From Maylandia zebra (taxonomy: Eukaryota; Chordata; Actinopteri; Cichliformes; Cichlidae): DNA of 64,000 nucleotides. The stretch spans positions 15,617,286 through 15,681,285 of the forward strand of contig NC_135176.1 in the NCBI RefSeq assembly GCF_041146795.1, written 5' to 3'. Below the pieces are notes generated by a model that saw only the letters and a program-made list of their open reading frames with translations, was not told the origin of the DNA and made no database searches. Below, piece after piece: positions 3,563-51,800 of the stretch; positions within the stretch are counted from its first letter, which is position 1; each line of letters opens with the position of its first letter. The translations under genes were made by a program, and so were the position numbers.

Positions 3563-3925
<363 letters not shown>

Positions 3926-4491
3926 GTTGGCTTTCTGACTGCAGGAGACAAAGCAATCTTTACCGTGTCCGCTCAGCTCTTACCTTCTCATGACATCACT
4001 GTTATCACACAATGTGCCTAAGGAAGCGGTCACTGGCTGCAGGGGTGCCTTTTATTTACTTTCATTTTGAATAGATGATTTACATGATTTGCAAGTGAGA
4101 GCTAAATGAAACCAGGACACTATCCAAAACAGCTGATGGAGATAGGCGTCCCTTTTATTGAGGTCCCTCGTGTAATTTAAGACATTAACATAAAGGGCCC
4201 TTTATGTTAGGATCACAAGAAATAGAAGCCATGCGTCGCTGGCATCATTATTTGGTAAATGTTGCTCGAATAGCCCAGTTTAACCATTGCAACACGCAGT
4301 ATCGCTAATTTAACCCAACAACGGTGTAAGTGCTCCGATTACCAGGTTTGCAAATAATGTGCAGCAAGTAAGGTAAGAGCCTGAGAGCGTGGATGAGCAC
4401 GCGGGGTACAGAAACCTCAACCCTCGCGCTGACCTGCTCACTGTGACAATTCGCAGCAAAGGTTAGAACCAAACGTGCATTTTACTCTTAC

Positions 4492-6299: not shown

Positions 6300-7700
6300 G
6301 AAACTGTAAACTGATTTTTTATTGAAGCTTTTCAATGTACTGGAGATTATATTTATCCTAATGAATATGCATCTTCTGCAGAAAAGCGCTGACCTAAGAG
6401 AAATGTGACATACATAAAGTCACATTCTCCTGTAACCTCCCAGTCTCCCCACCCTCCGTAAGTGTGTTCATGTTTAGCTTTACCACTCTCCTTATGTGCG
6501 TGGATCCATCCTGCACCTCCCAGCCCTCCTCCTGGATTACACCAAGCTTTGATCATGTTAATTTAAAAAAGAAAAATAATTCTCATCAGGAAGCCTTCCC
6601 GTGTGGAAAGAAATTTTCTTTCTGCTGTTTGAAGGCCAATTTAAAGTTTGAATATTTCTACAAAATGTTTCCACTTTGATGGGGTTATGTGGACAGGGTC
6701 AGGGGTGGGGATCCTCTCCCGGTAAATTGCTCCCATGCTCCTGCTCCATGTATCCATCCTGAAGCCTAATCCTAATCCGGCTCCGGAATGGGGAGACAAT
6801 GAGCCCAGTCCAGACCTTCAGAATACCAGCAGAACCAAAGAGAAGGAGGCAAGTTAGAATCACACCTTCAGGAAAATGCTTAAAGAAATGTCAACAAATA
6901 CAGCTACCAGGGACAGAACCATCACAGGACTTTATAATGTTTTAGAAAAATCTGCAGGGACTACTGAGAAGAATCACTGGACTTTAGGGGCTTGTCTAAC
7001 CTTGCCGGTATGAACTTTAGAATGTGAGCATGCAACAAACAAAACCTTTACTACAACCACAAACATCTCATTACAGTAATCAGCTATGTTCAAGCATATA
7101 TTTATGGCTAAAATGGACTAAAGCCTTATCTTATGCAGATTTCAGATATAGAGACCACAGCCATTGGTGCCATATCTGACTCCTCCTCCTGCTTATCCTA
7201 ATATGAACAGTCTCCTCTGTTCCCATCCTATCCTGCTCCTCTGAACTCTGAACAGAGAAACACGGGAAAGGGTCAAAATACAATTTTATAAGCAATGCTG
7301 GTAACAAATATATGTATATTAATATATATACATCCATAACAACCCCAGTATAAAAACCAAAACACAAAGCATACAATCCACACACAGGTTGGAACTGGAA
7401 GAGGAGGAGTACACACATAGGAAGGGACAAGTTTGCAGGAAAAAGGTTTAGATCATTGTGCGTGAAAAGGGTGAGAAAAGGATATAAGTAAAGGGGACAT
7501 ACATAAACCAGGAAAATTCAGCTGGTCTAAAGCAAAATAAATCCCGCAACAGAAATCTGGGGGAAAAGAAACACACAAGAGATGCAGGAAACAGTTAACA
7601 CAGCAAATGGTCCATGGAGATCTGTTCTGTGAAGTCTGTCGTCTCCACTCTGAGACGAGCTGGTGGGATGAGCTGGTGGTTTATGTCATAGGAGGGGCGT
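6300..7700 (-). other. Duplicated srsf1 3'UTR belonging to the pseudogene copy
   Basis: Several blocks match the 3'UTR of the intact gene in the same order. Positions 6500-6545 match 12808-12848 (the gtggatccatcctgcacctc block), 6680-6850 match 13010-13210, and 7160-7262 match 13515-13618. Conservation of non-coding blocks shows that a genomic segment, not just an mRNA coding part, was duplicated. The section includes an AT-rich insertion near 7300-7340. Confidence 0.75.
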
Positions 7701-10700
7701 CTAGGTGCGAGAGCGAGAGCGGGAGCGTCGGGGAGAGTAGTGAGGAGATCCTCTGCTGCGATGTGGGGAGTAGCTGCGTGACCCGCTGTTGCTCCGGCTT
7801 CGACTATGGCTACGAGAACGTGAGCAACCGTAGCTGGGGCTGCGAGGGCCGTCCATCTTTATGCGAATGTAGGGCGTCTCACCCTGAACATACAAACAGA
7901 AGAGCGGGAATGGCAAAAGAGCTGCTTGATTACATTAATTGTGGTTAAAAACATTTGGAAAAGATTGCTGCCCTCTTACAAAGAATCTCCACGAAAGAAA
8001 TTAAAAATGGTCTTAACATTGTACACCATCTGATTAGTGTCATTAATGTAGAATTTCACCATTTTCCTCACTCTCCCTGCTCGAAATTTTGTATCAGGAC
8101 TTACCTTGGAAAATTTAAATCCTAAAATTTACTCCCAGAGCTATTCATTGCAGCGACTCTAACCTACCTCATGGGAGCAAAACTTGGTGTTATCCAATTT
8201 ACGGATGGCGTAGGTCATGTCTTCCTTGCGTACAAACTCCACCACGCCAGTGCCATCACGGTACACGTCAGCATAACATACATCACCTGCCTCCCGCATG
8301 TGATCCTTCAGGTCCTGCCAACTCCCGCTGGGGGGAAGGCCTGACGTGAAGAATAGGGATGTTATAGGAAATGTAACACATTAAGGTGGGGAGGTAATAA
8401 GATGCGAGGTGACAAGATGCACGCGCCTACCTGAGACTATAACCCTGTACTCGGAGCGCCGTGACAGGGGACCATACCGTCCCCTTGGGGCTCCTAAAGC
8501 TCTGCCACCACCTCCCCTTCCACCTCCACTTCAAGGGAATTCAACACGCAGACGGTAGCCATCATAGTCGTAACCATCACGTCCATAAACAGCATCCTCT
8601 GCATCCCTGAAGAGTGATACTGACACTCACGCACTCCTCGGAACATGACAGAGGGTACCGACTTTTGACTTTTGGACTACTGAAGACTCAACATATCACT
8701 TTAATGTGTTAACGTAAAACTGAGCCAATCTAACAACAAGCATACAACTTTTTCTTAAGATTCAGAGAGGCAATTTGATGGTCTGTTTTCATTATCTCAT
8801 TTGTAGTGCAGACGAATTAGAGTAGTCTTGTTGTCCAGTTTACCCTCAATGATAAAAAAATGGTAAGGACAAAACAGTATGCAACCACAGACAGTATAAA
8901 ATGTGTTGCCACCTACTGGCTTCTGAAGTCTGGGTTAAAAAGCTTGGAGGTGGGGATTTTTGCGCAGTCAAGCTGGTGCTTTGAAATAGGATGTGAGGAA
9001 AGAAGCTTCTCTTTGTGAAACCACATGCTTAAGTGGTTAGCCAATGAGCATTACCTTTGTGAAACTTAGTATGAGAAAGATTTAAAACCGTGACTCAATT
9101 TTTTAAATTCGGTATTACCCCAAATGAGTGACTGAACCCATAAACTCAGCAAAAAATTGCTTAGAAAGGTTAAGTAAGAAAGCCAGTTTCCCGTAGATTT
9201 ACATAGGAACCCAAGTATTTTGAAACTGCAGTTATTGCCCCCTAGTTGGCAATCAAATAGAATGCAGATTTAATTGCTTTCACTTTTCAGACTTGCAAAG
9301 CACATCTGTGTTTTATATTAAACCCATAAATAACCGAAGGCATTAAAAATATTGCTTCACCCAAAATAAAATTGCAACATTGGTCTTAATTTACTTTTAC
9401 AACATTATCTAAAATTGGCATAATTTTCTGAGGACACTTCTTACATGGAGAGACCAATACAGCTGTGTAAATAAATCACAGTGCACATTAATTAGACATG
9501 GGAAGTGTTTTTAGAGAAACGTCATTTCTTTATTAAAACACTCAGACCCCATCAGTCCCAGTGTCACTCTCCATGGTGCTGAAACAGCAAACTATGTTCT
9601 GTCTGTTCAATCATTTTTTAATTGAAACACACACTTTTACAGAAAAGCTGGAAATAGAGCTGACTGCCTACTTCCAGTGGTATGAAGGATTTCATTAAAT
9701 ACAAATGGGAAATATCAGGGGGACTTACAGGGACGTTTTCAATGAGGTTTCAAGATATCTTGCTCATCTTACTTCATAATTGCTTTATTTTACTTTTAAT
9801 ATAGTGTTTACTTAATTAAAAAAATTATTTAACTGTTTTAGCTAAATTCTAGTTACAGATGTTTATTTTTCTACTGATAAGTTCAAAGAACAACTCTCCT
9901 GTAAATCATTTTGAAGATAAATAGTTTAATTTGGTCAAACTTTGTGAAGCAAGTGCCAGGGATACTACTTTAAAAGGCTTTGCAAGGTTTACTGTTCAAA
10001 TTAATCTGTTTATTATAATCTATATAATAGGGTCTTTGTGCAGACCTTTGAAAACATCTCTGGATAATACAGGTGGGAGTAGACCTGTGTACCTGAGATG
10101 ACCATATTACAAATATCTGGTCACTATGGCATAATACAGAGCCAATAAAATGAAAACATCTGAAACCCAGCAGTCTGTATCCGGAACCTGTGAAACTAGT
10201 TGGTTAAAATCTATGGAAACTCATTTCTGCCACTTTCTAACTCATATTTTGGAGAAATAATACCAGAAACTGAAAAAGAATAAGGACATTTTGAGGTATT
10301 AAGTTGGAGTTTTGACTTATGAATGGCATATGTCAAAACTCTTTGTTTCTTCCTCCTTAGTGGTAGAAATAAGATTTCATAAAAAAACTGAGCTTATAAT
10401 TTAAAACCAATATTATCTTATTAACACCAGGGGCAAATCTACAGGGGGGGGGGAGGGTTCAAATGTCCCCCTGGTGTAGAGCATTGCCCCTCAGCTTTTA
10501 TATCCTTAAAATACTTGTAAAAACTAATTGCTTATTTATTTATTTATTGGGAGGGGGTTTTGTTGTCTCATTTATACCTAAAACTGTCTGTTTTCTTAGA
10601 AGAGATAATGATACAATATATAGTTTTAAAGTGTTTTTTGTGGATATTTTGTTGACTCCATACACATACATTGCCCCAAAAGTGATAAATACAAATAAAA

Positions 10701-10996
10701 AACAAAACATTTTTAAGCACAATTACCTACAATTGTCACCCAAATTAACAATGACAACCATTTCAATATACATGCTTATTCTGAAGTACAATTCTAAAGT
10801 GTGGGCATTAACATGAATCTCTTTGGCGTTAAAATCACCTTTAAAGTCTGTTCTGATATTTCGGTGTAAACATGAGTTAAAATGTGGCACTGCAGCCCAC
10901 CTCGGGTCCTCAAATTCTACGAAGGCAAACGGCGGACCTCCTCTCCGGTTTTTCAGGTCAATATCGCGAATGATTCCGTATTTATAAAACACGTCC
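7701..10996 (-). pseudogene. Tandem, intron-containing srsf1 pseudogene
   Basis: Four segments match the srsf1 exons in order with introns kept: 10901-10996 (second half of exon 1, starting at [18 protein letters not shown]), 8431-8606 (exon 2), 8168-8340 (exon 3, 173 nt, the same length as the intact exon) and 7701-7883 (RS exon, 30 nt shorter than the intact one). Exon 1 lacks the start codon and first RRM strand, and just upstream is unrelated sequence with an in-frame stop. It also lacks three codons (Glu-Asp-Leu) before FYKYG. Exon 2 has an in-frame TGA where the intact gene has an arginine in FPRSGRG, a CGA-to-TGA type change. Exons 3 and 4 and their splice sites remain intact. By eye, exon 3 differs from the intact gene at about 11 of 173 sites. 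It is an unprocessed duplicate, probably not making SRSF1 protein; transcription is unknown. Confidence 0.9.
8610..10900 (-). other. Large intron 1 of the srsf1 pseudogene
   Basis: This 2.3 kb gap between the first two pseudo-exons is AT-rich. The intact gene has only about 460 bases here (16073-16536), so insertions have enlarged it. No transposase or gene is recognised. A run of G at 10443-10451 and a TTTA repeat near 10530-10548 are simple sequence. Confidence 0.5.
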
Positions 10997-10999
10997 TAG

Positions 11000-11769
11000 C
11001 GTGCTAGCGCTAGCAGCGAGCTAGGGTGACAGTTAAACGTCTGCGGCCCGAACAAGCAGTTAGGGGGAAAATAGATAAATAAAGACACAGCTTTTATCTG
11101 TAAAAACAAAATATGTGCTCACAGTTTGACTGGACTGGTGACATGAGTGCCAATACTGAGGAAGACCATCATGACGCTACTGAATGGAGACCAGGGACAG
11201 CGTACGTCACACGCACACGTAATAAAGCGGCAGACCGCTTCTACAAGTGCGAGACAAAACGTGATCTTAGATAAGAGAGCGAGAGACAAAATAGTTCTAG
11301 TATTTATACAAGTCGTGTTTCAGCACCCACTAGATTTTCAGCCATCACAGTTTAAACGTGCTGGCACAGACACAATCAAATACTTGCATTTTTTTTCTTT
11401 TAAAGAAATGCCTTTATTTAAATAGGTATGTGATGATGAGACAAGAAAGCAGGAAAGACTGAAGCTGAATACGAACCCAGTTGCTATAAATGACCCTGAG
11501 GCTCAACTACTTAAGTAAACCAACACCTGAGGAAGTTATTGAATAATAATGAATATCGTTAACCCCACTCTCAGACCTGGACAAACGGGAAGAGTTCTGT
11601 CAGGAAAGCCATTTGGCATAAAATCTGTCCAAGACCAGATTACCAACAACTGCCTCCAGAGCTGTTGCACAATAATGTGCCTGAAGATGACAGAAGAGTG
11701 GGGGAAGATGTTAATCTTTTCTTCTCTCACTGCCTCCTAACACTAACAAGAGACAGCACAAGCAAAGAA
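11000..11769. other. Spacer beyond the duplication breakpoint, no gene seen
   Basis: Homology with srsf1 stops at about 10996. The following sequence shows short open frames without recognisable products. Confidence 0.4.
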
Positions 11770-12330
11770 GACAGAAGGCAAAGATGGAGGTGGCAAAGTT
11801 GAAGTTAAGAATGTCATTGAAAATTACCAGAATGGACAAAATTAGAAAGTAGTAGATCAGAGGGACGGCTTAATTTGAAGACAAAGTTAGGGAGACAAGG
11901 CAGAGATGGTTTGGACATGTGCAGAGGATGCATAGTGGGACGATTGTAGTTCAGGGGGTTGAGAAGCTTATCTGTAACCGGAAGGTTGCCAGTTCGATCC
12001 CCAGCTCTGTCCTGGTTGTTGTGTCCTTGGGCAAGACACTTTACCCTACCACCTACTGGTATTGGCCAGAGGGGCCGAGGGCACGATATGGCAACCTCGC
12101 CATTCAGTGACTGAATTGTGAAGCGCTTTGGGTGCCTAGAAAAGCGCTATATAAATGCAATCCATTATTATACTAGACAAATGAAGATGGAGTTGCCAGG
12201 CAGGAGTAAAAGAAGACCTCAGAGAAGATTCATGGATGTAGTGTAGGATATACAGAGGACTGATGTCATAGAGGACAGGGTGAGATGGAGGCAGATGATC
12301 CATTGTGGAGACGTCAAAGTGGACCAGGCA
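11770..12330 (+). mobile_element. 3' end of a non-LTR retrotransposon (LINE), split by a SINE
   Basis: On either side of the SINE are the two halves of a common fish LINE reverse-transcriptase tail. The left half ends in a WFGHVQRM-like reading (gatggtttggacatgtgcag). The right half continues as RMELPGRRKRRPQRRFMDV-like, then DRVRWRQMI-like. Frames are broken, so it is a remnant. The clade was not fixed; RTE-like is possible. Confidence 0.65.
11938..12172 (+). mobile_element. tRNA-derived SINE inserted in the LINE remnant
   Basis: The 5' part looks like a tRNA gene promoter, with an A-box-like stretch near 11947 and a clear B box (GGTTGCCAGTTCGATCCC, about 11983-12000). A non-tRNA body with ttgtgtccttgggcaagaca follows. 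The tail aagcgctatataaatgcaat is a common end of teleost SINEs. It interrupts the LINE text, so it is the younger insertion. Confidence 0.75.
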
Positions 12331-12569
12331 AGAGGAAGAAGAATGAGGCAAATCTGGCTTCATCATAAGAGACAAAGAAGTGTAGAGTGCGGGACTGAAA
12401 GATCTGAAAGAGGTAGCACCTTGGCAAACAGTGCTCCTGCTAAGCTATGAGATTTTTAAGACAATGAAATTAACAGCAGCCACCTAGAGGAATATGTTCA
12501 AATACTCTGTACACACCATTTTTAATGCAGTGAAAGAAAAAAGTCAGTTCATCTAATGTTGTAGAACGT

Positions 12570-12575
12570 TTTATT
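12570..12575 (-). promoter_or_regulatory. srsf1: Polyadenylation signal, likely for srsf1
   Basis: The plus strand reads tttatt, AATAAA on the gene strand, about 1.45 kb past the srsf1 stop. The sequence 12576-14029 matches the length expected of the long conserved SRSF1 3'UTR and is partly duplicated with the pseudogene. Confidence 0.5.
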
Positions 12576-13656
12576 AAAAGAGAATAAAGCTTTGAGATAA
12601 TCGAGATCATGTGTAAGAAAACCAGAAGTCAGCCACCGCTAGAAAAAAAAAAAAAAAACTGGACCAAAAAGAAAAACAAAAGAAAAGAAAAAAAGATACA
12701 AACCACATTAAAGTTACGATCCCTTGTCTCCTCCCAGACTTCCCTCTTCACCCCTCCCTCCCTCCTCCACTGGTAACGGTTTTCCACTATTTACCACTCC
12801 TTACGCGTGTGGATCCATCCTGCACCTCCCAGCCCTCCTCCTGGATTTGATCCATGCTTTTCTCTTCTTTTTAATTATTTAAAAAATAAAAATAAACGGT
12901 GCGGCACTGTGTAGCCAGTAAGTCTGTCTGTGAGGTCCCACACAAAAAGGGAAATTTTGGAAAATTCGAAAGCCAATTTTCTCTGAATATCGCACTACAA
13001 TGGTTCCGGTTTGATGGGTTTATGTGGACAGGGCCAGGGGGTCGGGATCTTCTCCCGGTAAAAACGCTCCTATGATCCTGCTCCATGTATCCATCCTGAA
13101 GCCTAATCCTAAACTGATCCTGAATCCTGATCCAGCTCCGGAATGGTGAGACAATGAGCCCAGTCCAAACCTTCAGAATACCAGCAGAACCAAAGAGAAG
13201 GAGGCGAGTTAGAATCACACCTTCAGGAAAATGCTTGAAGTAATGTAAATAAATGCAGCTACCAGGGAGTTTACTTTGAGAAAAAAGGAGAAAACCATCT
13301 ATAATCAAGCCCAAAATACAAAGATTTACTTTGTATGATAAAGGATGATAAAAAGCACCAAACCCCCCCCCCAAAAAAAAACCAAAAAAAAAAAAAAAAA
13401 ACTTAACTACTGAAAACATTCAAACTGGGCCCTATTGTCAGATTTATGCTTTTTGAAAAAAGAAAAAATGAACAGCCTTATAATTTCACAGTTGACAAGG
13501 CACAGCCATCATACCATTGGTGCCACATTTGACTCCTCCTCCTCCTGTTTATCCTAATATGAACTGTTTCCTCTGTTCCCATCCTATCCTGTTCCTCTGA
13601 ACTCTGAACAGAGAAACACAAGAAGGTCAAAAAGACAGCAGTATTTCGCCTGAAGG

Positions 13657-13696
<40 letters not shown>

Positions 13697-14029
13697 ATCT
13701 TTGCAAATGAAGCAAAAAACATTCAACACTCAACCAGGACAATCAGGAGAAGAGAGGTACACAGATGAATTAGAGATGACACAGCAGAAGCAGAACACGT
13801 TTTGAGAGAAGAGAAGAAATAATGGAGCAAAACTCGGTCATGTGCACGCTCAACTGGTCTGCAAAAATTAGAATGGAAAATAAAACTGCAGGTGGGTTGG
13901 TGTCGGTTAGGGAAGGAAGCACACACCATGACAGCATACATAGGTGACACACGAGATGATCCTTGATGAATACACAGGATTCGTTGAGTAATGTGAAGAT
14001 TTCCACTCTGGCTCTTAGGTCAGGCTTGC
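12576..14029 (-). other. srsf1: srsf1 3'UTR region
   Basis: This lies directly downstream of the srsf1 stop. It shares ordered blocks with 6300-7700 in the pseudocopy and has long A/T runs at 13375-13399 and 13660-13694. SRSF1 is known to control its own mRNA through conserved 3'UTR sequences and alternative 3'UTR introns. The duplicated blocks may be such elements (inference). 3'UTR introns were not mapped. Confidence 0.6.
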
Positions 14030-16727
14030 CTAGGTGCGAGAGCGGGAGCGAGAGCGGGAATGGGACCGGGAGCGGGAGCGAGAGCGGCGGGGAGAATATC
14101 GGGGAGATCCTCTGTTGCGGCGTGGGGAGTAGCTGCGTGATCCACTCTTGCTCCTGCTTCGACTGCGGCTACGAGAGCGAGAGCGACCGTAGCTGGGGCT
14201 CCGAGGGCCGTCCATCTTCACACGGATATAAGCCGTCTCACCCTGAACACAAACATGAGCACACATCACCGACCATTCCTTTTCCTGTTATATGAAACCC
14301 ACATACAGAAATAGCTAACCACATTTTTTCCTGGTTGATGTATTAGTCATAAATAAACAGACATACTGCTGCACAACAACCCCAATCCACACATCAGAAT
14401 TTTAAATTGCATTCATAATCAGCCAATTCATCATTCAGTAAGATCGTTTCTGTTAATATAAAACAGATAAGCCAATTATTGATTCTTATCACCAGGAAAT
14501 CTTTACAGTTGAGCATTTTGCTTTACTTACTGCAAATTAACTGTCACATTCCTTACAATGTTTAAGTAAGCTTTTCAATGTCTGTGTTGGCTCTCAGTCA
14601 TCTGGGTAATGGTAGTCTTAACAGCTTTAAGAGATTGGAGATAAAGGAGGAAGAAAAAAAAAAAAAAAAAAAAAAGGCATCAAGACTTCTTTAGGTTTGC
14701 AAAGACGTTTCACTTTGCAGCCAACAGGCTCCTTCAGTTCTAAGTGATCCTGAAGGTCTCCTACCCATCTGTGGTAGCAATAAGGAGCAAGAAAAAGCAT
14801 CAGTGCCAACTGATTCACAAGGTTGGAACGATGATTGGCCAGAATTTGGAGGACGCTCAAATTGCTCTCCATCTTGGACAATCCATCTCACCCACTCCAC
14901 AATTCTGAGGTAAAAGAGTTAGTTCTCCCTCAGGCCGACATTCCTGACATTTTCTGTGAAACTGTAACTAACTGTCTTTCTGTAACAGGCTAATTTTTAT
15001 TCTTTATCCTGCCACTGTAACAAAACAATTTCCCTTGTGAGATCAATAAATGATATAAAACAAATGGTGGAGAGTCCCGGGTAATTAAAGTGTAGCAGCA
15101 TTTGTTCCCTTTGGCAGCGGCTCCAAGTATCATTGACCCATTACTGATCATGTGAGTCAGCACATGAGCCAAGGTGGGTTAATGCTACATTTTGTTGTCA
15201 AGGTATGCTGCCTATGAATTATTTAGTTCCTGGGTCTCGTCTGACTTTACAAGTGGCACATCCAAGTTCAGGGGGTGCTCCAGATTAAATTTCTGACTGG
15301 AAAACAGAAATTCTGACTTATTCAGGAACACACCATAAATATCTGTAACTATTTGTTTTCCGTTTGATTAAAGGTGAAACCTCTTTGCAAGCCTAAAGAA
15401 GTCCAGTTGTCACCTTTTTTTCGTCTTCTTAAGACTAAGCTTTTCAAGTTAGTCCTTATTAACTCATTCACTGCCAGCCATTGGCAGTGAATGAGTTAAA
15501 CCCATTGACTCATTCACTGCCATTGACGGCTATAGACGTCAATGGCAGTGAATGAGTTAAGAGAGTCTGACAATGTGAGGATTTACATACCTCATGGGAG
15601 CGAAACTTTGTGTTGTCCAGTTTACGGACGGCGTAGGTCATGTCTTCTTTGCGTACAAACTCCACCACACCAGTGCCATCACGGAACACATCAGCATAAC
15701 ATACATCACCTGCTTCCCGCATGTGATCCTTCAGGTCCTGCCAGCTCCCGCTGGGGGGAAGGCCTAACAAGTAAATAACAACAAAAGTTTTGTAAGCTTT
15801 ACACATACAACTACACACTTTTAAACTAGAGACCACAACCTTCAGATAGAAAAATACACCACTCACCTGAGACAACCACCCTGTTCTCCGAGCGTCGGGA
15901 TGGGGGACCATACCTTCCCCTTGGGGGTCCCATTCCCCCTCCTCCTCCTCCCCCTCCTCCAGCACCACCACCACCACCACCTCCTCCTCTTCCACTTCTA
16001 GGGAACTCCACACGCAGACGGTAGCCATCGTAGTCATATCCATCACGCCCATAAACAGCATCTTCAGCATCCCTGTGAAATCGAACAGTGAAATGAATAA
16101 TCTAATACCAATAATGCAAACAAACATGCAGTTTTACTCGCATCTCAGTCTTTGTCATAGACCATTTAAAAATGGGGAGGAAATTAGCCTCTTATAGTGG
16201 ACTTATAGATGATAGATAGTTTGTTAAATCGTTTAATTGGTATCTTGATCATTACCCATCAGCTAAAAAGTGGTTTGGTAGTAGCCCATTTGCAAGCACA
16301 TTCACAGGTACTTAACGGGGTAAACCGCCAATTAACGTGGCCTCCTGCAGGCCTCAACAACACATTTCACGACAATCCAAAAAGAGCTCCAATTACTCGA
16401 CTCAAACCTTCTCCTAAACCAAATTCTTGCTACAGGTTATATCCCGTCAACTCGCACGTTGTGTCCCCTTATTTGGGTGTAGCTGGCTAACTGTGGAGAT
16501 AACAGGCAGACGTGGCGGCGGGACAATGCGGCTCACCTCGGGTCGTCGAACTGCACGAAAGCAAACGGTGGTCCTCCTCTTCGGTTCTTCAGATCTATAT
16601 CACGAATACTTCCGTACTTGTAAAATAAGTCTTCCACGTCTTTTGAACGTATGTCGGGAGGGAGATTTCCCACATATATCCGACAGTCGTTACTCCCCGC
16701 GGGTCCTCGAATAAGACCGCCAGACAT
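14030..16727 (-). CDS. srsf1: Serine/arginine-rich splicing factor 1 (SF2/ASF)
   Basis: Four exons, 16537-16727 (ATG at 16727), 15867-16072, 15591-15763 and 14030-14242, join in phase to 260 residues (human 248). Order: RRM1 with [13 protein letters not shown] and PFAFVQF; a Gly-rich linker of about 20 residues, longer than in human; the pseudo-RRM2 with the family signature [13 protein letters not shown] and [17 protein letters not shown]; then the RS domain with [15 protein letters not shown] and [18 protein letters not shown]. It binds purine-rich exonic enhancers, promotes exon inclusion and U1 recruitment, and shuttles between nucleus and cytoplasm under SRPK/CLK phosphorylation. In RRM2 the text reads ADVFRDGTG where human and the nearby pseudocopy have Tyr. 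It lies next to dynll2, as in human 17q22. The a/b fish paralogue was not assigned. Confidence 0.97.
14640..15060 (+). repeat. Two LINE-type repeat tails in srsf1 intron 3
   Basis: Positions 14690-14760 carry the fish repeat text aagacgtttca...cttcagttctaa. Positions 14880-15055 carry a second one ending acaatttcccttgtgagatc followed by aataaa, the usual 3' end of several fish non-LTR elements. An A run lies at 14649-14674. Families were not named. Confidence 0.5.
15459..15558. repeat. Pair of hairpin palindromes beside srsf1 exon 3
   Basis: Two near-perfect inverted repeats lie end to end. The first (15459-15499) has 18-bp arms TTAACTCATTCACTGCCA. The second (15508-15558) has 21-bp arms from ACTCATTCACTGCCATTGAC around an 8-9 base loop. 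They share the same core and look like a hairpin MITE. They end about 32 bases from the exon 3 donor at 15590. Confidence 0.8.
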
Positions 16728-20038: not shown

Positions 20039-23000
20039 TTATTCCTTTTTGGCTTGCTTTTCTCTGCGTCTCTGCCTGGCCTCCGACACTATTTTCAGCA
20101 TTGAGAGCAGAATAGGCACGCACATGGGCAAGAAGAGTGGTATGTAGATAGCAAACTTCTGATCGTCTGGAAAGTAGAGCAGGTGAAGGAGCGAAGGGTC
20201 GAAGAATGCTTTCTCCGAAGCCAAGATGGCCTCTTTGCTGTACTGCAGAGCAAAGCCGAGGTTTCCGACCTCCAGCTCAGCCATGGCCAGCTGCAGGGAC
20301 GTGACAGCACTGGACACCTGCATATTAGCAAATTAGATCACAGGTTATGTATTATTATTGTTATTATTATGAAATTAGAGGAGACTACCTAATTGTTAGC
20401 CGTAAGATACCACTCTGATACCGAGACTGAAATGGCCTTTTGTTTTATTTGGGTTCATTCGGTTTGTCTTTGTGTTCATATATGCAGTCTTCGTGTGATA
20501 TGAAAGTGTTATTTTTTGGTTTTCCATAGGGCGATTTTTTTGTGTATCTTTTCTTTAAAAAAAAAAAGAGGCATTGACAAAATTTAGAGTCAGAATTTCT
20601 AGGTGTGCACCCAAGTGGCAAAAAGCTTCTAATTTTGTGGCTTCAGGTCCTCATCTTTGGTTTTTGCATATGATGTGGTTCATCAGGTGGTCGCCTCCAG
20701 TTCACTTTGGAGCAGTTCACAGCTGCATGTGATGCAGCAAGAATGAGAACTAGCACTTCTATGTCTGAGACCACAGATCTATGCCAGGTGGAGTGCCCAG
20801 TCAGGGTTAAGCTCAAGTTGCTGCCCCAAATGGGGGATTTTTCAGTATATCGGGCTCTTGTTGAGTGAGATGCAGACAGAAGCAGACAGAGGGACAGGTC
20901 TGCAACTTTGTCCACTAGCTTCTCGGTACTAACTCAAAAGAATGAGAGCATGGATATAAGCAATATAAATGAGCTTTCTCCGAATGTTGGCTGACCTCTC
21001 CCTAGAGACAGGCAAGGGTTTCAGTCATCTAGGAGGGGCTCAGAGTAGAGGAGCTGCTCCTCCACATTGCAAAGAGCCAGCCAAGGTGGCTCAGCCATCT
21101 GACTAGGATCCCTCCTGGGCATGTCCTGTTCCTGGCCTGTCCTTCTGGGAGGATGCACCAGGGCAAACCCAAGACATGCTGTAGAGATTACATTTCTTGG
21201 ATGGCCGAGAGACCGAGGGTATGCCTCTGTGTTCCCCGGGCTGCTGCAATGGCGATCTGGACACGGATAAGTGGCAGAAGATGCATGAATGGGTTTTATT
21301 ATTCTATTAGTTTAGGGAGAGAGGTTCTGGGTCCCACAGCCTCCTGTGTGGCTGGCCTGGACTCCTTCCATGTTTATCTTACCGTCTTCCAGGCCTCCAG
21401 ACCTTCATTCTGTTTAAATAAAATAAGTATTGCTGACAAATTCAAACTCTGGTGTGGCATCCTCTTTATATGTTGCAGTCACTGAGATTAATTGAGCTTT
21501 TTGGGTTTTTTTTTACTTTTTGAGCTGGCTGTGACAACAGAAATAGTTTCTGATTTTGTTTTTTATGTTTCTAATTTCAGCTTATGTAGTGAGATTGCTG
21601 ATGTTGTTCCTGACTTCCCCCAGCTAGGATCTGATTGTACTACATTAAACAGATGCTCTTCTGGCCAATCTTTGTTACCTGCCAGTGCAAATGAACCAGA
21701 AGCCCCTCAGAGTAGAAGCTTACTAACTAACTTTAGTTTGCGTCCTCACTACTATGTCGCTAGTACAATAATACAATTATTAAAAGAAGGATGAATTTTG
21801 GATTTTTGTCTTCAGGTGATGAGCAGGAAGTAGCTTGTTTATTGTTGATTAACTGACAATAACAAAGTATTTAACAACAAAATAAAGTCACATATGACAG
21901 TTTTAAATTTAAACTGAGAAACCAAAACAATGACATAAATCTCCAGAATCAAAGTTAAGATGTGTTAAGAAATCTACGCACATGCACAATTTTGCTACAT
22001 GGAGCAAACGCATAACTACTAAAACACCTTCACCTTACCTGCTGTGCAATGTTGTCATTGATAACAATGTTGCCTATCTGGTCCAGCAACTGCGCCAGAG
22101 AGGTGATGGTGGTGGTTGCTGTTGCAATGTTTTCCACACTACGACTCCACATGAGGCGATCCAGCTCCCAGTCAGCTAGTCCTGTGCTACCACACGGTGC
22201 CACGAGGAAGCCAGGTGGGGGGCTTAATGACTGCACGCCCAGCAACAACCTGACAGGACACGGCACATGAAGGTTACTTTGTGTCGAGAGGAAAGAAAAC
22301 GACTGCCGCACTGCGGGTTAACACTTACCGAAGCTGGGTGAGGAAGACTCCCATCACTTTAGCCATGTTAATGTTGACGTGAACAGGGAACTCCGTCTCC
22401 GACCTATAGAAACCATTCACGTTATAAACCTGCAAAAACATGGATAAATATAGGTTACAATACCCAACATAACAAAATAAACATGCAGCTCTCCCTCAGC
22501 GTTGCTCTTCGTTCTTCTTACCATGATTCCACCCCACCGTGGAGAGTGAAACGCATTGGAAGGGACTTCCTGTTTCCTGTGATCGTGGATGTAAAGGGGT
22601 GAATGACGAATATCCGGGACATACAGCAGAAAATTTAACACAGGGTTAGAAGATGCCGCATTAGAGCCTGGAAGTCAAACGCAAAAAAAAAAAAAAGAAT
22701 TAAAACATATTGTATTTAAATACAGCAGAAAAAGCTAAACCATGATCATTTAAAAAAGCAGACTTTTACCAAGTCTAGCCTCCACCGGGTTGATGACATG
22801 TGCAAGGCTGTCAGCATTGAGCGTGTAAGCCTCGAAGCTGCTGTCAAAGCGTGGGGTCACTCCGAGCATGGTGTAGTACAAGGTCTATAAAAAAGGAAAG
22901 GTAAACCTTAACTTCCAATAATTGAGCATCTTTTCTTTGTCATAATAGGGACTGTGCATTAACAGCACCTGAGAGTCCATGCTAAAGTTAGCCAGAGGGG

Positions 23001-25597
23001 ACAGTTTTGTAAGCAAAGGCTGGATGTATGTCTGCACGGCACCCTCAATGTCCCAGTGCAGCTGGTGTGACTTTGGATCAGGGTTTAGCAGACTGAATGT
23101 GATCTCATAACCTGACAGGAAGATAAGAACAATCAAAGAAAAGACACAAACGTGTTCTCAGAGTTAAACCTGGAGCCAAATTACCAACCTGGGCTAGATT
23201 TGAAGGCTCTCATGCTGTCAGCAATGCTCTCTTTGTTGCCAGGTCTAAAACGGACTCTGTCGCTGAGTGCAACAGTGATGTCAGTGTGGCTAAAAGACAT
23301 CACTTGGAGCACCTGCTTGATCTGGGGCTCCAACTGAGCCAGCAATTGCTCTAGTGTCTTGCCCACTCTCATCTGGGCGCTGATACGCACCAGGGCTGTC
23401 CTTCGCTGACCGATATACACATTCACATCCTGAAAGGCATGAAGGTGCAATGCATACTTTATTATCTTTGTCTTACCTGGAATATAACAAATAATTAATT
23501 GTGTTTCAAGCTCTGCAGAAGGTACTCTATTTACAATCTGTGACAGTAAATTATATTTTCTTCATTATCCTTTTTTCTAATAGTAATTAGCATGGAGTGA
23601 TCACACTCATGAAATACAATAAAAAAGCTTCAGTTTTACCTCAGGCAGCAAAGAAGAGGACTCCGGGATCACATACACAACTAAAGAACCGCACGGACTC
23701 TCACTGAGCATGTGCAGAGACAGATCTGCTTCTAAAGCAGAAAAATTATCGTGATTATCAGCTGTGCTTTCTTTGAGAAAAAATGTCAAATGTCAACATC
23801 TGAAGTACCACAAGTTGGATTTGACAGGCTGCTGCTCACCTGCAGCAGTCGGCTTTTTCAGGGCATCTTCCTCCATGATTGTAGCTGTGCGGTGCTTTGT
23901 TTCATACCTGTACCTCAATGTTGTGTCCTCTGGAAAGAAAGTTTGAGAGTCAAACGACCTTGCAGGCTTCATATTCTGTGACCGCAGAATCATAAACTGC
24001 ATGAGCAAATCACCATCCACTGTATGTTCCTCATCCTGCGTCTGCGTCAACGGGACCTTTTTCTGCTGTTCTGGCGTGACGGTGCCGCGTGCAAACACAA
24101 CCTCGACATCAGCGCTCAAGTGCAGCTGCAAAATAAGAAATAACGTAGAGATAAGAATGTATTACACAAGGAAGATCAATCAACTACAAGGCATGAGAGA
24201 TAAATGGAAACACTAAAAAACCTGCAGTTTAGCCAGATCTTTGATCTGACTGACAGGTAACCAGGCACGGTATGTCTCAGTTGTTCGCCACCACAAAGGG
24301 ACTCCCACAATGATGACAACGGCTGCTATGGATAGAGCAGCAAGCTGACCTCGTCGACGCTCTGGGAGACAAACACACAGTATTGTTGTTTGAAAGATTT
24401 TCACTGATGATAAATCTGCTAATTATCTATCAGTTAAAAATGGAGTACAGTAGAAATTAAAGTATACATTTGAAATACACCCATTTTAAATTAAATAACA
24501 GCTTAGTTAAAATAAACACTGTTTCACATTAAAATGACTAACTGTAACAATCGATCTATTACCAAAATAACTGCAGTAAAACTTCATTTAAACAGATAAC
24601 TGACCAATTATTTCAGCTCTAAATGCCGACATTCAAACCTAACTTGGGATTCAGGCTAAAACAAAATCAGATCATTTATATAAGCACCAGCAAACATAAT
24701 CAGAGTTTACCATGGTGTTTAAACTAAAAATACTCAATTGTTAAAAAATGAAATAGTTTTGGGGTTGTTTTTTTTTTTTGCTTCTGGAAATCATTGAACA
24801 ATATGTTAAATATAATATTTTAAAATAGGTTACACGCACTCACTGGCCACTTTTTTAGTCACAATTTGACATCAACAGCATAAAGGTAGGGATCCACCTT
24901 GTCTTGTATCAACAGTACAGGCATCTGGTGGTGTAACTGGTGTGGGGGATATGCTCTTGGCCCCTTAGCACCAACTGAGCCTCGTTTAAATACCATACTT
25001 GAGTTTTCTTGCTGACCATGTCCACCCCTTTGTGACTACAGTGTGGGATCGAACTCAGTAGTCTCACGGTGTGCCTACTAAAATATCCGGTGACTGTATA
25101 TTATGACAGAGGATTTTATCCCAATCCTTGACCCCTACGTACCCTCGATATGTCCAGACTGGTGACCACTGACTGAGTAAGACATTTGTGTCTATCATGC
25201 TGCATCAACTACAGTGTCTTACATGGTTGTAAACGAGGCTCAGTGTAAACATTAGGCATATTACTGCCCTTTGTGGAAGCTTTACTATCGTAAGTATTCC
25301 TTTAATTAAAAATATATATTTAAAAACACAAAACAAAAACAAATCATGTAGTAAACAGCAGGTGTTCTTGCAGTGGCAGGGCATCACCCCTGCAACTGGG
25401 GCTAGCTAGCCATTAGCTTCAAAGGGTCATAACATGGAGAAAACGGCTCCTGTTAGTCCGCTATGGTTGCACTCTGTACAAAGGTTCATGTTTAATAAAT
25501 CTAACGTAAACCAATGAAAATGAAACACTTAATAAGAATTAAATCATTTACACTCATTTCAGTTACGAATCTACTCACCCACTTCCGTGATAGCCAT
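20039..25597 (-). CDS. pigs: GPI transamidase component PIG-S
   Basis: Twelve exons in phase: 25579-25597, 24222-24361, 24014-24125, 23840-23929, 23640-23731, 23189-23429, 22969-23111, 22770-22884, 22522-22667, 22329-22429, 22039-22249 and 20039-20317. They give 562 residues (human 555). PIG-S is a subunit of the ER-membrane complex that attaches GPI anchors to proteins. An N-terminal membrane segment ([19 protein letters not shown]) precedes the family text [15 protein letters not shown]. Then come a lumenal domain with [40 protein letters not shown] and HSPRWGGIM, followed by [20 protein letters not shown] and [22 protein letters not shown]-terminal membrane segment ([20 protein letters not shown]) ends in a basic tail. 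The first exon holds only 19 coding bases. The 84-nt intron at 23930-24013 stays open in frame. Neighbouring aldoc and rskr match human 17q11.2. Confidence 0.97.
20640..21300 (+). mobile_element. LINE 3'-end remnant in pigs intron 11
   Basis: Positions 21020-21300 carry the well-known fish LINE tail: aggaggggctcagagtagag, then gagccagccaaggtggctca, then a [18 protein letters not shown]-like reading near 21165-21220, then cggataagtggcagaagatg. Upstream text from 20640 probably belongs to the same or a linked repeat. Frames are broken. Confidence 0.65.
24839..25098 (+). mobile_element. Internally deleted Tc1-like copy in pigs intron 1
   Basis: The left end cactggccactttttt and the right end ctaaaatatccggtgactgt are the terminal parts of a common fish Tc1-like element. 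Between them only the middle of the transposase survives (ggtgtgggggatatgctctt, ttgctgaccatgtccaccc). Pieces of this family also occur at 27530, 38870 and 57110. Confidence 0.7.
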
Positions 25598-29501: not shown

Positions 29502-32189
<2,688 letters not shown>

Positions 32190-48674: not shown

Positions 48675-48680
48675 TTTATT
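48675..48680 (-). promoter_or_regulatory. cct8: Polyadenylation signal for the distal cct8 end
   Basis: tttatt on the plus strand, AATAAA on the gene strand, 185 bases beyond the stop codon of the distal last exon. Confidence 0.6.
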
Positions 48681-48864: not shown

Positions 48865-51800
48865 TTAGTCGTCCTCATCAAAGTCTTTCTTTCCCTGGGG
48901 AGGTTTGGGTCCTCCTGCTGGTTTGGCCATGATGATCTATAAAGGAAGAAAACAATCATTTCATCATAAGATCCATGCAGCTGAGTGAGTGGGCTTTATG
49001 GCAGAGTGGAAGCACATCACCTCTGACCTTCATAAAATAATTGATAGACAAACATTAACCACAGCATCCAAAATGTGTTCAATCTTAAACTGCTGTGCTT
49101 ATTTATAAATGAGGGGACTATATTTTCAAAGTAAAAAAAAGACCATTTAAATCCCTACAGATATTCCAGAAGTCCATTTATAGTGATTAAACATTCATGA
49201 GCACACGTGGGAGTACCGTATGTTGTGCTTTAAGAGAAATTCTCTACACAGGAAAATGTACTTGTGCACAAAACGTGAACACTTAAAATCAAATAAATAA
49301 TTAAAGAAAAAAAATGAGCTGAAGAAATAATAATTAAACTCTGGGTCAGTTACTTAAGGCACTTCATGTTTCACAAAACATCTTCAACTACGTCTAAACT
49401 GAATTAATCTTCTCTTAAAATAGATTAAAAAACAAAACAGTGTTTGATTTGGTACTTGCACTCACAAACTGCTTGCGCATGCAGCATGCTATCACACCAC
49501 ACACACTATCTGCTCTGTGCAGGTTTAGGCAGTGGCACATCTGGGTTTGTGTAAAACACCTGCGATGTGGTTGAATCCAGTCAGTAACGCAACATTTCTC
49601 CAGTATTAGTAGTGACAGGTAACACATACATATTTCAACCTCCTGTGAGTGACTGAGCACACTGGTGCAGATTTTTGTTTTGTTTTTAGTTAAAAGCGCA
49701 CACACATTCCAAAACCTACTGACTGAGCGACTGAGGGTTTTGTGTGTGCCCTCTAATGGTGAGTTTCAAAATTATCAGGCTCTTCATCCCAACCGTCCTT
49801 GTCCCAATGGCCTCTCTGCTTGGGAGCCTTGGGTCCCCCTGCAGCCTTAGCCATGATGATCTGGATCGTACATATATGCACACTTAATTTATCCACCAGT
49901 TGCTTTAAAGAACATAAAAAAAAAATCCTAAAAAGAATAATACAAAACTCAAAATATAAACAGAAAGCAAACATCTGTGAGATGTGATTTGATGCGGTCT
50001 GTCGGATCTCTGGAGTGTGGCATTACGTTTGTTGATTTGCCTCAAAGCCTAAATTATTCAGTTAAAAACCAAACCGATACATTAAAAGCCGTCTAATAGA
50101 TGAAGTTTTGTAAACAGGTGAAAAATAGTCCTAAAGGCTCTTACTGTCTGACTGATTGAAGCAGTTTTCTGTCTCAATCAAAAACAAAAAACACAATTTC
50201 AAAAGTTCATAAAATATTCTGTATGAGGCTGGCTTTCATTACATGTAGAGTTTGTGTGTTAAGAATGTTTTGTTTGTACCCACCTGGTCCACCCTCAGCA
50301 CTGTGATAGCGGAATTGGTAGCCAGTTTTATGCCCCAGTATTTGACCAGGTAGGGATCCAGAATGCCGGCTTCGAGCATGTCCTTCACAGCAGGACCATC
50401 ACTCTGCAAACAACATGACAACCGCACCGTCAGTCAAGAATATGAGACGCTTCAATAGAAACGGGTATTAAAAAAAATAATTTCAAATTTTGGATTTAAG
50501 GGGGAAAAAAGGATGCCACAACACAAATTTTAAGATGTCTTTTATAGACCTAGTCTGCTCAACTTAACTCGACTGTTTCTAGGGTTTCTCATACTCAGAA
50601 AACGAGACGTCAACAGACTGCATGTCACCGATTGGCTAGTCAGTGGCGTTCCTCAATTAGTCATGAGGGCGTCTCCTTCACGAAAATCAAAAGCATAATT
50701 TTTGAAACCCGGAAATTAGGGACCTGGCTATGCAAAAAAAAAAAAAAAAAAAAAGGAGGCAGCAGGTATAGCATCACCTCAACCTCCTCCATCGTCGTGG
50801 TGTTTGAGTCGCCATTACTTCGTACTCGACTGTAAAAGAAACCGTCCGAAACCGAGTTGAGCCAAGATGAGTAGGTACAGGTGGGAAAAAGGACTGTTAG
50901 TGTTAAGCTGTGTACCCTAATCTAAAAAGTGGTGTGCATCTACCCAAGTTAACTGGAAGCCAAAAAAAATAAATAAATCTAAACTGTGATTCGCCTGCTT
51001 GGTAATTACATACGATGTGAACATCATATTATTTAGCTTAAAGATCATGTGGAACAGGCTGTATCTGTCTCCATAGCGCAGACAACACAAATGGACTCGG
51101 TGGGAGCTCAAGTCCTTCCAGCATTTCAGTCAAGGTAACTGTTTTTCTCTCAAAGGCCAACACATGAGCCAAGTTTCTCTTGTGATGACAGAATGATGTA
51201 GTGCATGTTTTTAGTGCAAACAGCAGTGTTAGCTCCTCCGGCATTCACTGTCACGTTTTGGACACCACTGGTAATGCGTTAAGGACCAGTGTGTAAGGTT
51301 TAGGTGCCTCTTGCAGTGCCGTTGTAGATTGTAACCAAGGAAAACACAGGCTGAATATTTTAAACGATTCACATCTGAAATCAAACTATATCAAAGCCAT
51401 CCACACATTCTTCTCATGCATCCATACATACCTCAATGTCAAAGCCCATGTTTTTGTTTCCCTCATGATGCGCAGAATACAGCTTTGAAATAAGCTCGCT
51501 CCCCTTCACGCCGGAGTTCTCAGCGAGGGCACGTGGCAACGCCTCGAAAGCTTCGGCAAACTTTTTAATGGCATACTGCTCGAGACCAGGGCAGGACTGC
51601 AGAAAGGCAGGAAAATGGTGTATCAGTCAAAATAGGACAAAACGAAGACGAGAGATAAGTGTGTGGACTTGGAATATGTTAATTAATTCACTTGAATGTG
51701 CATACCTCTCCATATGAGGTGATCTGTTTGGCCAGCTCAATCTCAGTGGCTCCTCCTCCAGGTACCAGCCTGTTGTCCTAAAGATAATGAATGACAGAGA

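Follow-up and report, generated by a model that had tools for sequence, protein, structure and literature searches.

The 64,000-nucleotide stretch of Maylandia zebra DNA which was analyzed (referred to as the window) carries a complete cct8 (CCT theta) gene on its minus strand. The gene has 14 shared exons which are followed by two homologous last coding exons, 15a (proximal) and 15b (distal, with the ordinary tail). The alignment with 15b identifies exon 15a as a tandem copy of this last coding exon rather than a chance frame. We consider it probable that 15a is old and serves as a regulated alternative last exon of minor use, of the kind known from KRAS4A/4B. The coordinates of the relevant features are listed in Table 1.

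Table 1. Features of the cct8 gene in the window (all on the minus strand).
Feature	Coordinates	Strand	Remarks
cct8 exon 1, start codon	56308..56367	-	
cct8 exon 14, last shared exon	50284..50403	-	120 nt, phase 0, donor CAG/GTGGGT
T-rich tract with two acceptor-like AGs	49903..49940	-	ca 45-80 bases upstream of 15a; both AGs outscore the 15a AG
In-frame open 42-nt stretch, QLVDKLSVHICTIQ	49861..49902	-	added if the exon starts at 49902; codon use not coding-like
Exon 15a, proximal last coding exon	49753..49860	-	35 codons and TAG
Strong polypyrimidine tract and acceptor of 15b	48937..48957	-	matrix score 8.65 (15b in training), 7.5 in leave-one-out
Exon 15b, distal last coding exon, ordinary CCT8 tail	48865..48936	-	23 codons and TAA
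First AATAAA after exon 14	48675..48680	-	possibly common to both isoforms

The cct8 gene and its two last coding exons

The exons of cct8 were placed by mapping a human CCT8 protein sequence, and the junctions were then read from the DNA. The 14 shared coding exons extend from 56367 to 50284 (minus strand), and all 13 introns between them are of the GT-AG type. The predicted protein (stop codon excluded) has 546 residues with 15b and 558 residues with 15a. When compared to the CCT theta model TIGR02346, the 15a form reaches 834.3 bits over residues 10-538, which exceeds the curated cut-off of 455.9, and the 15b form reaches 1045 bits over residues 1-545 when compared to the best solved CCT theta chains. 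The predicted protein body together with the 15b tail is an ordinary CCT8.

A preliminary description of this DNA had reported two in-phase last exons after exon 14 of cct8. Their coordinates, phases, frames, and tails were all confirmed: each exon is in phase with exon 14, is preceded by an AG, and has an open frame which ends at a stop codon. Exon 15a codes for the 35-residue peptide IIMAKAAGGPKAPKQRGHWDKDGWDEEPDNFETHH, which has two Trp and carries two His at its end, while exon 15b codes for the 23-residue peptide IIMAKPAGGPKPPQGKKDFDEDD with its acidic C-terminal end. The 15a tail is thus 12 residues longer than the 15b tail, which has no Trp at all. The calculated charges of the exon peptides (-2.0 for 15a, -1.2 for 15b) indicate that they are similarly acidic overall.

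When the source genome (962 Mb, 63 contigs) was subjected to a profile search, 22 exon-sized matches were obtained, nine of them at the cct8 locus and 13 elsewhere, and no second cct8 was seen among the best candidates scored. The 13 off-locus matches have scores from 27 to 70.5 bits. Because 11 of these align with this CCT8 with identities of only 25-44% and the remaining two (L020 and L022) do not match it at E 0.001, we read them as other chaperonin-type genes. One of the latter two (L020, C2:18104667-18105464; 30 bits with the CCT theta model) is located inside a stop-free open frame of 644 residues and is perhaps a single-exon chaperonin-like gene.

The neighborhood of cct8 contains, also on the minus strand, exons which match PIG-S (20042-23157), class I aldolase (30230-31006), and dynein light chain (3767-3979). 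RRM matches were found on the same strand at 8162-8380 and 10726-10995 (within 7598-8380 and 10726-14287, respectively), together with an arginine-serine-rich reading frame at 14033-14287, and two frames of this strand, which begin at 7858 and 14217, resemble each other. This suggests that two related SR-protein genes are located near each other at 7598-8380 and 10726-14287.

Homology of exons 15a and 15b

Starting from the acceptor AG, the first 14 codons of 15a and 15b align without gaps, and 34 of 42 bases are identical. The local alignment of the two exons has a score of 44, a value which was not reached in any of 300 shuffles (maximum 24). Elsewhere in the 64-kb window, no 42-base stretch of either strand attains even 26 of 42 matches, and we thus do not consider 15a to be a chance frame. 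Beyond codon 14, no DNA similarity is detectable between the two tails (P 0.52). The 200-base flanks of the two exons also lack significant similarity (P 0.59 upstream, P 0.06 downstream).

A genome search with the 15a DNA returned a single match, which is 15a itself. In the whole-genome search with the 15a peptide (E up to 10, two candidates scored), the exon itself (E 2.1e-19) and 15b (E 4.9) were retrieved, and there was no third match. Viral and prokaryote collections were scanned with sequence patterns for animal DNA present as a contaminant, and, as expected, no match was obtained.

Splicing signals and the 3' end of a putative 15a message

Acceptor sites were scored with a position matrix which had been trained on the 14 other cct8 acceptors, with the 473 AGs in the gene region, among them exonic ones, as background. 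In leave-one-out scoring, the 14 acceptors range from +1.3 to +9.0, corresponding to the 93rd to 100th percentile of the 473 AGs. The preliminary description had assigned an AG acceptor, an open frame, and a stop codon to both exons. This is literally true, but the AG of 15a is weak: with a score of -5.3 it is at the 56th percentile and resembles an average background AG, it has almost no polypyrimidine tract, and it ranks 42nd when the 83 AGs from exon 14 to 15b, including itself, are compared. Weak splice sites can be usable when they are regulated, and regulated exons often need help.

The T-rich tract upstream of 15a contains two AGs which should outcompete the AG of 15a. The first of these (score 5.6; first exon base 49927) leads to loss of the frame and to the short tail DFFFMFFKATGG, and the second (score 5.1; first exon base 49902) is in frame and leads to 14 extra residues. 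Retention of intron 14 was rejected as a source of an alternative tail: the reading frame ends after VGTNKTFLTHKLYM and does not include the 15a tail.

The word TGCATG occurs on the minus strand at 49478-49483 (after 15a) and at 48974-48979 (about 40 bases before 15b). According to the RBFOX positional rule, as described in PMC5840707, such a placement would favor 15a. Of 1254 windows of 1347 bases on the same strand, 12% contain at least two TGCATG words, and since the observed pair is no more than expected by chance, we give little weight to a control of 15a by RBFOX.

No AATAAA or ATTAAA was found between exon 14 and position 48680, which is beyond 15b. Between 15a and 15b there are only variant hexamers (e.g., TATAAA at 49182 and 49107). 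The donors which follow 15a are weak; the best of them (position 49027) has a score of 2.9, near the bottom of the range for the donors of the cct8 gene (2.7-8.5). If 15a is used, its message would most simply continue to the AATAAA at 48680, and 15b would be part of its 3' UTR. Because a canonical poly(A) signal is lacking between 15a and 15b, it is likely that the choice is one between acceptors, with a common 3' end. The poor polypyrimidine tract and the absence of AATAAA and ATTAAA up to a position beyond 15b show that 15a is not self-contained. The term "complete alternative last exons" in the preliminary description is thus overstated, while it holds that the exons are homologous, in phase, and last coding.

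Is exon 15a a functional exon or a relic?

The properties of the 15a acceptor, and the fact that 15a lacks its own canonical poly(A) signal, would also be explained if 15a were a relic, that is, an old exon duplicate which may or may not have been functional at one time, no longer has a polypyrimidine tract, and is passed over in splicing, with the open frame as its remnant. We take this as the main rival explanation, but consider it less likely in view of the coding sequence itself. Exon 15a has neither a stop codon nor a frameshift within its frame.

The eight differences between 15a and 15b in the aligned block are distributed as three, zero, and five over the first, second, and third codon positions. 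They affect seven codons, with four silent differences and three residue changes; so few changes are obtained with P 0.05-0.07 in a neutral simulation. This result is only borderline, which leaves room for a relic, and as a sign of selection on 15a the pattern of silent changes is suggestive only.

The 21 codons of 15a which follow the aligned block code for seven D/E residues and for only one of L, I, V, F, M, and C. Among the stop-free windows of the cct8 introns, at least seven acidic residues were found in 0 of 1359 on the same strand and in 0 of 1148 on the opposite strand. The same acidic level is reached by 0.19% of 43914 windows when the whole window is considered (both strands, real exons included). 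All these figures come from overlapping and thus not independent windows and from a measure picked after the tail had been seen. This composition is far beyond the intron background and argues against a relic. Codon use in the same 21 codons is only moderately coding-like, with 5.0% and 3.8% of the intron windows being as good. The stop-free length of 15a is unremarkable on its own (12% for 34 codons).

A comparison to PDB sequences aligned 15a with the C-terminal tails of CCT theta from five distinct sequences (E 0.04-0.26) and with one unrelated chain (E 7.4); these matches are weak and rest mainly on the common IIMAK.AGGPK.P. In these five CCT theta sequences, unlike in 15a, the chain ends 24-25 residues after IIMAK begins, and none has a 35-residue tail ending in DNFETHH. 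At the position where 15b has F-D, 15a has W-D. Four of the PDB tails, which we take to be mammalian-type, have KKDWD, and one has RPGNWDQE (PDB 4v81, presumably from yeast; its tail reads RAPQGPRPGNWDQE). Exon 15a thus has an element which is common to distant CCT8 tails and absent from 15b, and this element is present though the two tails no longer resemble each other at the DNA level. An open frame, an acidic tail, and W-D would together be unexpected in a long-dead copy. Silent changes, acidic tail, and W-D, when taken together, suggest that selection has kept 15a.

It is also conceivable, though improbable, that 15a is used via the stronger AG at 49904-49903, so that QLVDKLSVHICTIQ precedes IIMAK. 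The score of this AG is within the range of the real cct8 acceptors and the 14-residue extension is open and in frame, but its codon use is intron-like (LLR -6.1; 44% of the intron windows are as good) and the homology to 15b begins at the AG of 15a rather than upstream. The insertion would presumably adjoin the last equatorial strand, which also counts against a start at 49902. The weakest explanation, that 15a belongs to a processed (RNA-derived) copy of cct8 which was inserted into the intron, would agree with its start at an exon boundary but is highly improbable, because the 10 to 45 bases before 15a show no resemblance to the last bases of exon 14 (P 0.14-0.65), as would be required of a retrocopy, and no other cct8 exon was matched between exon 14 and 15a.

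Proposed use of 15a as a regulated alternative last exon

We infer that a regulated exon 15a would be used in RNA as follows. By default, exon 14 would be joined to the strong acceptor of 15b, resulting in the ordinary CCT8 of 546 residues. Under conditions which activate the weak acceptor of 15a, exon 14 would be joined to 15a, resulting in a CCT8 of 558 residues with a longer acidic tail and two Trp. Both acceptors would then be served by the AATAAA at 48680, without a choice between 3' ends.

The 15a tail would project into the equatorial chamber and could there change contacts with substrates or partners. A cryo-EM study has described unstructured CCT tails located between the rings as well as C-terminal extensions of CCT which point to the center of the closed chamber and contact tubulin (PMC10188570). 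As these extensions are near the chamber center and touch tubulin, it is fair to infer that the choice of the tail would alter the chamber; a changed contact with substrates or partners through the putative 15a tail, and an effect on folding, may follow. It is possible, though we propose this only tentatively, that there are two kinds of CCT/TRiC which differ only in the CCT8 tail, that the use of 15a is switched between tissues, and that the chamber floor is retuned in this way, by two exposed Trp and a longer acidic tail, for particular substrates or partners.

Comparison to known systems

Alternative homologous last exons are already known as a kind; the cct8 case, with its putative use of 15a, would be a new example. 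The splicing of KRAS4A/4B has been reported to be tightly regulated, with an exon 4A which was derived from NRAS and has been present since the jawed-vertebrate ancestor (PMC9882654, preprint). As in KRAS, cct8 has two related in-phase last coding exons, with the alternative one located before the default one, and the choice in cct8 would change mainly a flexible C-terminal tail. The systems differ in that the source of 15a is likely the last exon of cct8 itself.

The cct8 pair also belongs to the same class of events as the homologous exon substitutions, in which a related exon is swapped after tandem exon duplication. Those detected by human proteomics are reported to be all older than 460 million years (PMC4465641); neither CCT8 nor chaperonin occurs in the main text of that study. 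CCT8 has been reported as a target of nonsense-mediated decay, and an emetine-sensitive alternative isoform of CCT8 is cited in the same report (PMC3091714). In the literature searched, which includes only a minority of the subscription journals, no title or opening of an abstract concerned a CCT8 tail switch or its peptide. Public genome annotation could already list both cct8 tails as predicted isoforms.

CCT is usually taken as a fixed set of eight subunits. Should 15a be unused, it would be a plain example of a duplicate exon in decay. If the CCT8 tail switch is true, it would represent a change of chaperonin composition at the level of splicing, by which the folding chamber would be altered without changing the subunit genes.
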